NCBI RefSeq assembly: GCF_031624635.1
Contig: NZ_JAMQOQ010000001.1
Span: forward strand, 1,116,001 to 1,180,000
Length of the DNA: 64,000 nt
Reading direction: 5' to 3'
Source: Halogeometricum sp. S3BR5-2
GTDB taxonomy: Archaea > Halobacteriota > Halobacteria > Halobacteriales > Haloferacaceae
Part shown: positions 44,590 through 62,248 of the stretch, one piece after another
How positions within the stretch are numbered: position 1 is the first letter of the stretch
Layout of the letters: every line of letters begins with the position of its first letter
Made by a program: the position numbers and the translations under genes
Notes under the pieces: model-generated
The model's input: only the letters and a program-made list of their open reading frames with translations
Told to the model about the DNA's origin: nothing
The model's database searches: none

Positions 44590-44674
44590 GCCGAGGTAGC
44601 CTAGCCTGGCCAAGGCGGTAGATTCGAAATCTACTGTCCATTCGGACACGTGAGTTCAAATCTCACCCTCGGCG
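44590..44674 (+). tRNA. tRNA-Ser (anticodon CGA)
   Basis: 85 bases without CCA. The acceptor stem GCCGAGG pairs with CCTCGGC (44667-44673), discriminator G. The anticodon stem GTAGA/TCTAC holds loop TTCGAAA, giving CGA. A long variable arm (TGTCC ATTC GGACA) marks serine. The T arm is GTGAG TTCAAAT CTCAC. Its last 21 bases (44654-44674) recur exactly twice downstream. Confidence 0.95.
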
Positions 44675-44810
44675 CTTTCTCAGCGAACTCAGCCCGCGAG
44701 AGACCTTCGTGTCTCTCGCCACGCCTGATTCGCTGTGTCACGTTTACGTGAGATTTGAATCAGGGAGCGACCGGCAGGGAGCGACCGTGGTTCAAATCTC
44801 ACCCTCGGCG
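44675..44810 (+). repeat. tRNA-3'-end module, copy 1
   Basis: 136 bases. It starts with CTTTCTCAGCGAACTCAGCC, then a perfect 9-bp hairpin (44696-44704 with 44711-44719, loop CTTCGT). Next is a 12-base inverted copy of the tRNA T-arm region (GTGAGATTTGAA, 44748-44759), a 31-base loop holding two CAGGGAGCGACCG repeats, and the exact 21-base tRNA 3' end (44790-44810). The 12-base arms pair perfectly. Confidence 0.85.
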
Positions 44811-44948
44811 TCTTCTCACAGACTCACCCACAAAGCGGCGCGTCTCGTCGCGCCGCGGTACGCGTGAGTCGTCGCGTAGCGCTACGTGAGATTTGAATCA
44901 GGGAGCGAACGGAGGTGAGCGACCGCGGTTCAAATCTCACCCTCGGCG
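44811..44948 (+). repeat. tRNA-3'-end module, copy 2
   Basis: 138 bases with the same order of parts as copy 1. The first hairpin has a different stem (GCGGCGCG 44835-44842 with CGCGCCGC 44849-44856) but again a 6-base loop (TCTCGT). A palindrome CGTAGCGCTACG lies at 44875-44886. The inverted 12-mer (44886-44897) and its partner (44929-44940) enclose a 31-base loop, and the module ends with the exact 21-base tRNA 3' end (44928-44948). Stem sequences differ from copy 1 while pairing is kept. Confidence 0.85.
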
Positions 44949-44984
44949 CTTTTCCAACACGTCACCCCAGCGAGAGACCTCCGA
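44949..44984 (+). repeat. Degraded start of a third tRNA-3'-end module
   Basis: After copy 2 the text CTTTTCCAACACGTCACCCC with AGCGAGAGACC resembles the first 35 bases of copy 1 (CTTTCTCAGCGAACTCAGCC with CGCGAGAGACC), then diverges before the BASS transporter gene. Read as a partial unit. Confidence 0.4.
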
Positions 44985-62223: not shown

Positions 62224-62248
62224 TTCCCGCGAGCGAAGCGAGCGGGAA
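62224..62248. repeat. Hairpin with GAGCGAAGCGA loop at a gene-fragment junction
   Basis: Perfect 7-base arms TTCCCGC (62224-62230) and GCGGGAA (62242-62248) around GAGCGAAGCGA. It sits between the stub of one gene and the 3' part of another. The loop resembles those at 7693-7707 and in the tRNA modules. Confidence 0.6.

Follow-up and report, generated by a model that had tools for sequence, protein, structure and literature searches.

What are the copies of a tRNA 3′ end that stand in tandem behind the gene for tRNA-Ser(CGA) in Halogeometricum sp. S3BR5-2? Each copy closes a module with its own hairpins, and such an array might be the trace of integrated elements, part of an RNA that is transcribed with the tRNA, or a DNA repeat of another kind. 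The locus lies in a stretch of 64,000 nucleotides, referred to here as the window; the genome to which it belongs is designated G000.

The Array behind tRNA-Ser(CGA)

A preliminary description of the window had claimed that the last 21 bases of tRNA-Ser(CGA) recur twice downstream, and both copies are exact (Table 1). The modules that they close had been given as about 137 bases long; the measured spacings are 136 and 138. The first hairpins (hairpin A) and the 12-base inverted arms of the second (hairpin B) were found where they had been placed. A partial third unit had also been proposed, and the 40 bases after the last copy do score 18.5 against the trailer, where the 99th percentile of the controls is 16.5.

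Table 1. Parts of the tRNA-Ser(CGA) array, in window coordinates
Feature	Position	Strand	Details
tRNA-Ser(CGA) gene	44590..44675	+	source of the copied 3′ tail (T54 to end); ARAGORN, Rfam
Original tail	44654..44674	+	GTTCAAATCTCACCCTCGGCG
Unit 1 hairpin A	44675..44743	+	5′ half is the tRNA trailer; inner stem GCGAGAGAC/GTCTCTCGC, 6-base loop CTTCGT; outer stem CAGCGAA/TTCGCTG
Unit 1 hairpin B	44748..44802	+	inverted T-arm copy GTGAGATTTGAA, then tandem-GA stem core, then TTCAAATCTCAC; 12-mer arms 44748-44759/44791-44802; model R1 match 44747-44803, 80.3 bits
Tail copy 1, exact	44790..44810	+	
Unit 2 hairpin A	44811..44882	+	inner stem GCGGCGCG/CGCGCCGC, 6-base loop TCTCGT; outer stem GACTCAC/GTGAGTC
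Unit 2 hairpin B	44886..44940	+	12-mer arms 44886-44897/44929-44940; model R1 match 44885-44941, 78.8 bits
Tail copy 2, exact	44928..44948	+	
Terminal partial repeat of tRNA trailer (hairpin A 5′ half), diverged	44949..44984	+	44967-44983 is 88% identical to 44693-44709

An Rfam search of the window matched only the tRNA at this locus, and the units carry no known RNA family. The flanking genes appear ordinary by eye, the upstream one being ATPase-like (MoxR type) and the downstream one coding for a membrane protein. A tRNA 3′-half or split-tRNA gene was considered and dropped: the main tRNA is complete, and the partner 5′ half is absent.

Fold and Covariation

RNA folding compared with shuffles gave z scores of -5.6 for unit 1 and -4.6 for unit 2; DNA folding was less striking, at -4.2 and -2.8. 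The 31 bases with GAGCGA motifs that lie between the arms had been taken for a loop, a view that has to be revised: they form a stem once tandem G·A pairs are counted. The stem reads GG-GA-GC-GA-CC / GG-GA-GC-GA-CC in unit 1 and GG-GA-GC-GA-AC / GT-GA-GC-GA-CC in unit 2, the two cores differing by a compensatory change from CC/GG to AC/GT. A kink-turn was considered and dropped, the tandem G·A pairs being without a flanking 3-base bulge. An acceptor-like 5′ strand before hairpin B was also set aside; it appears in the folds of both window units and is inconsistent in others.

Selection on structure, suggested earlier from the two units, is upheld by strong covariation across tRNAs and genomes. 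In an alignment of 25 copies of hairpin B (A1), 86% of cells are paired, as against 25–46% with slid partners, and both sides have changed in 11 pairs. The covariation score is 0.288 versus 0.157 for shuffled alignments (0/500); it is partly due to the tail being a copy of the tRNA, and core pairs outside the tail covary too (columns 18-49, with 17 GC and 7 CG, 22-45, and 25-42).

The central G·A and A·G pairs are near-invariant (118 and 116 of 127 distinct modules), a conservation that is partly selected for, as the modules came from a model search; tail copies detected without the model carry the same cores, and conservation of the motif xxGAGC...GCGAxx extends from family to family. In 26 and 16 of the 127, A–T and G–C pairs take the place of the tandem GA pair that comes next, as would be expected if the GA position truly pairs. 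Stems that can be closed end in a triloop in 54 cases, 36 of them GNA, and in a tetraloop in 16. GNA triloops form very stable DNA mini-hairpins, and the predominance of triloops points, if only suggestively, to hairpins made of DNA.

Distribution and Turnover

A near-copy of the tRNA's own tail, with at most 4 mismatches, lies downstream of 14 of the 46 tRNA genes scored in G000, about a third, whereas each of three controls (the gene's first 21 bases, its middle 21, and the tail compared with flanks that had been shuffled) gave 0 of 46. A covariance model of hairpin B finds 24 sites in this genome, every one of which follows a tRNA gene or a fragment of a tRNA 3′ end. When one unit served as the query, hairpins were found behind tRNA-Arg(CCG), Gly(TCC), Ser(TGA), Ser(GGA), and Leu(CAA), each closing with a copy of the 3′ end of its own tRNA.

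Beyond this genome, covariance model R1 matches 181 of 194 genomes of Halobacteriales (63 of the 65 genera in the tally) and 18 of 20 in a second draw, but none of 100 genomes from other Halobacteriota. Within the order, units are scarce or absent in genomes of family f17. An exact DNA pattern, searched against the genomes of 84,980 species, had six matches, all in haloarchaea (Haloferax sulfurifontis among them) and all closely preceded by a tRNA gene of the same orientation. H. sulfurifontis carries a unit downstream of its tRNA-Ala(CGC) gene (L210). A same-strand tRNA likewise precedes all 30 loci fetched from the R1 survey. In seven genomes, 123 of 134 distinct modules share the strand of an intact tRNA that lies 32–511 bp upstream of them; most of the others stand behind incomplete 3′ ends of tRNAs (fragments of tRNA-His, for example), and these ends are likely to be attR sites of integrated elements. 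No description of this type of repeat was found in the open-access literature, the only literature searchable.

Unit sites are gained and lost between species. Within one genus, tRNA-Ser(CGA) carries two units in G000, one in G001 and G004, and none in G002 and G003; three near-identical units follow it in G032, and relatives overall range from 0 to 3. The congeners G000, G003, and G004 have modules at 17, 17, and 15 tRNA species, in differing sets. Cores from one genome resemble each other more than cores from different genomes do, though the effect is small (0.277 versus 0.230, 0/500), and likeness is highest for congeners at the same tRNA (0.403). Part of it is thus vertical inheritance, and spread and descent both play a part. 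Arrays of greater length, in which the tail is copied as many as six times, are seen at loci L146 (G139), L147 and L208 (G215), and L178 (G055); some consist of near-identical units of ~108–111 bp, and they are apparently recent expansions.

Anatomy of the Unit

Read from the tRNA outward, a unit comprises the tail from T54, the trailer folded as hairpin A, an inverted T-arm copy, the tandem-GA core, and the tail copy. These parts track the local gene. The left arm matches the complement of its own T-stem at 2.86 of 5 positions, versus 1.84 when tRNAs are permuted (0/2000), and the 3′ arm of hairpin A is the reverse complement of the trailer (0/2000). Between that arm and hairpin B, an inverted acceptor copy gives a weak signal (3.81 versus 3.55, 1/2000) with a flat forward control, the segment being largely decayed. 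In 21 of 88 arrays the trailer appears once more past the final tail copy, about one being expected at the threshold used; this repeat halts within ~10 bases of the hairpin A apex in several arrays and runs on in others. Tail copies diverge by 14–21% in the acceptor part versus 0–6% in the T-loop, a difference to which model selection contributes.

The sequence of the element is therefore tied to its site, arms and tail alike matching the local tRNA. The simplest drawing is of tail and trailer, an inverted copy, and tail and trailer again, each of the two turns having a conserved cap. Template switching of a spontaneous kind would not leave a conserved core, so shared ancestry or an enzyme with sequence specificity must have a part in it.

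The site need not be a tRNA gene. In G144, three 102-bp units follow the stop codon of what by eye is a protein gene, and the tail that they copy, three times, is that gene's own end, GGTTCGAGCCGGTCTGAGC, which starts like a T-loop. The closest relative found for this array follows tRNA-Val(TAC), also in G144 (73% over 103 bp). Since the end of a protein gene is copied, what ties the element to its site is a T-loop-like start rather than tRNA function.

A Proposed Hairpin DNA Repeat on tRNA Ends

The reading that we favor, with a probability of roughly 0.5, is that the units are a new kind of non-autonomous, non-coding hairpin DNA repeat that is specific to haloarchaea and resides on tRNA 3′ ends. 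More tentatively, they may constitute an undescribed, order-wide selfish repeat that copies gene 3′ ends forward, inverted, and forward, and whose folded tandem-G·A strand is recognized by a dedicated haloarchaeal enzyme.

A unit could be born by recombination or fold-back replication that starts in the T-loop, at the nearly universal GGTTCRA. The copying would take tail and trailer forward, inverted, and forward again, with the two stable hairpins as the turn-rounds, and the tRNA would stay intact because the copy takes in its whole 3′ part. Recombination from tail to tail could then add or remove units. The conserved core and the hairpin caps suggest a protein that acts on one folded DNA strand.

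Several points count against a DNA repeat. No recombinase or transposase was linked to the units, no unit turned up in the viral, phage, and plasmid collections, and the same-strand place behind tRNAs would also suit a role in RNA. Spontaneous template switching by itself would not account for so conserved a core, the inverted acceptor segment has largely decayed, and the within-genome likeness of cores is slight and in part inherited. If the reading is correct, small elements have a new means of occupying essential genes while leaving them intact, and an enzyme or replication process that works on folded DNA at tRNA 3′ ends would be indicated.

Alternative Explanations

The main rival explanation, less likely than the DNA reading, is that tRNA and units share a transcript and that hairpins A and B act in the precursor, in 3′ processing, termination, protection, or release of small RNAs, while the left arm prevents the tail copy from disturbing the fold of the tRNA. 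Wherever an intact tRNA is near, the modules are downstream of it and on its strand, as such a role would have it, and the structural covariation is strong. Some hairpin A loops (CTTCGT, TCTCGT) resemble RNA loops of the UNCG type. G·T exceeds A·C in the paired columns by 193 to 81, but the excess falls mainly in two columns, without which the counts are 109 and 77. Most tRNA genes, moreover, have no units, orthologous tRNAs gain and lose them, and one array stands behind a protein gene. The copied acceptor strand has no evident role in the hairpin, yet the tail copies are often exact (62 of 122). Should the role nonetheless lie in RNA, the units would represent a widespread, lineage-specific layer of tRNA biogenesis.

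That each unit was inserted by a tyrosine recombinase with the tRNA 3′ end as attB, giving an array of attachment sites, an option raised at the outset, or of gene-less satellite cassettes, is improbable. A tRNA tail as a direct repeat is a hallmark of integration, and an integrase-bearing element does occur in this genome: outside the window (G000:C1:80782-91053, L205), an island of ~10 kb is bounded by tRNA-Leu(TAG) on one side and an incomplete copy of the tRNA-Leu 3′ end on the other, encodes a tyrosine recombinase (PF00589) and an Eco57I-type restriction-methylase, and has a hairpin unit just past its right-hand copy, attR. This insertion looks quite unlike the hairpin units, which at ~96–184 bp are too short to hold an integrase or other element genes between the repeats. 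The units encode no recombinase, and almost all tRNA isotypes have units that match them. Searches of viral, phage, and plasmid collections turned up none. The arms, moreover, repeat the local tRNA in inverted form, and integration does not generate such copies. Such units can mislead the annotation of tRNA attachment sites and proviruses.

Tandem tails alone could come from an old integration scar that was duplicated in the ordinary way and is structured by accident, but the tail controls in G000, the covarying base pairs, and the genome survey, which places the hairpin behind many tRNA genes of haloarchaea and in none of the 100 relatives, rule this origin out almost completely, in keeping with the earlier doubt that a simple scar would suffice.

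Relation to Known Repeats

The REP/BIME palindromes of bacteria are short, non-autonomous intergenic hairpins that occur in many clustered copies, turn over fast, and are associated with RAYT transposases. The haloarchaeal units resemble them in form, number, clustering, and turnover, and in being non-autonomous, but no RAYT was linked to the units. Their target is tRNA 3′ ends, and whereas REP arms have a fixed sequence, the arms and tail of these units follow the neighboring tRNA.

Tandem inversion duplications in bacteria are large, rare direct-inverted-direct mutations with non-conserved junctions. The segment order, with turn-rounds at palindromes, may be the same here, as the arms and the trailer indicate and the acceptor part does weakly, but the units are only ~100–140 bp long, and their cores are conserved across a whole order.

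Among haloarchaeal elements, the PATEs, MITEs, and small mobile repeats (SMRs, ~110 bp) of Haloquadratum are transposase-free, palindromic, and of similar size (PMC3119063). Unlike the present units they are described as families with their own ends, and the available part of that account describes no link to tRNA ends (PMC3119063). PATEs and SMRs are there reported to cause no target duplication, and SMR-A targets PATEs or IS605-type elements (PMC3119063). The same source treats islands at tRNA-Ala and tRNA-His of Haloquadratum, where tRNA genes serve as integrase attachment sites (PMC3119063). A direct repeat of the tRNA 3′ end is common to such sites and to these units; the sites, however, flank kilobase islands with an integrase gene, and neither an inverted copy nor conserved hairpins are described for them in the part available (PMC3119063).

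Minor Hairpin Classes and Variants

GA hairpins as a general feature of the genome were considered and rejected; the scan used found 3 in the 64-kb window, barely above shuffles. An isolated GA hairpin, TTCCCGCGAGCGAAGCGAGCGGGAA, lies at 62224-62248 of the window, with no tRNA gene nearby there. Upstream of tRNA-Gly(TCC) (L004, 1650-1800), GA-core hairpins occur together with repeats of the tRNA 5′ end (GCGCCGGTG).

A second hairpin class is found in G000 downstream of tRNA-Arg(CCT), Arg(TCT), and Arg(GCG) (L039, L049, L058). Its GA core is on the opposite strand (with a loop like CTCGCTTCGCTCG) and is followed by a shorter tail copy; occurrence of the core in both orientations would favor a DNA element.

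At L028, L031, L138, L154, L170, L202, and L206, an extra base recurs after TTCA or TTCG in the copied T-loop, for example TTCACAATC in place of TTCAAATC, and its position is shared by copies that follow different tRNAs.
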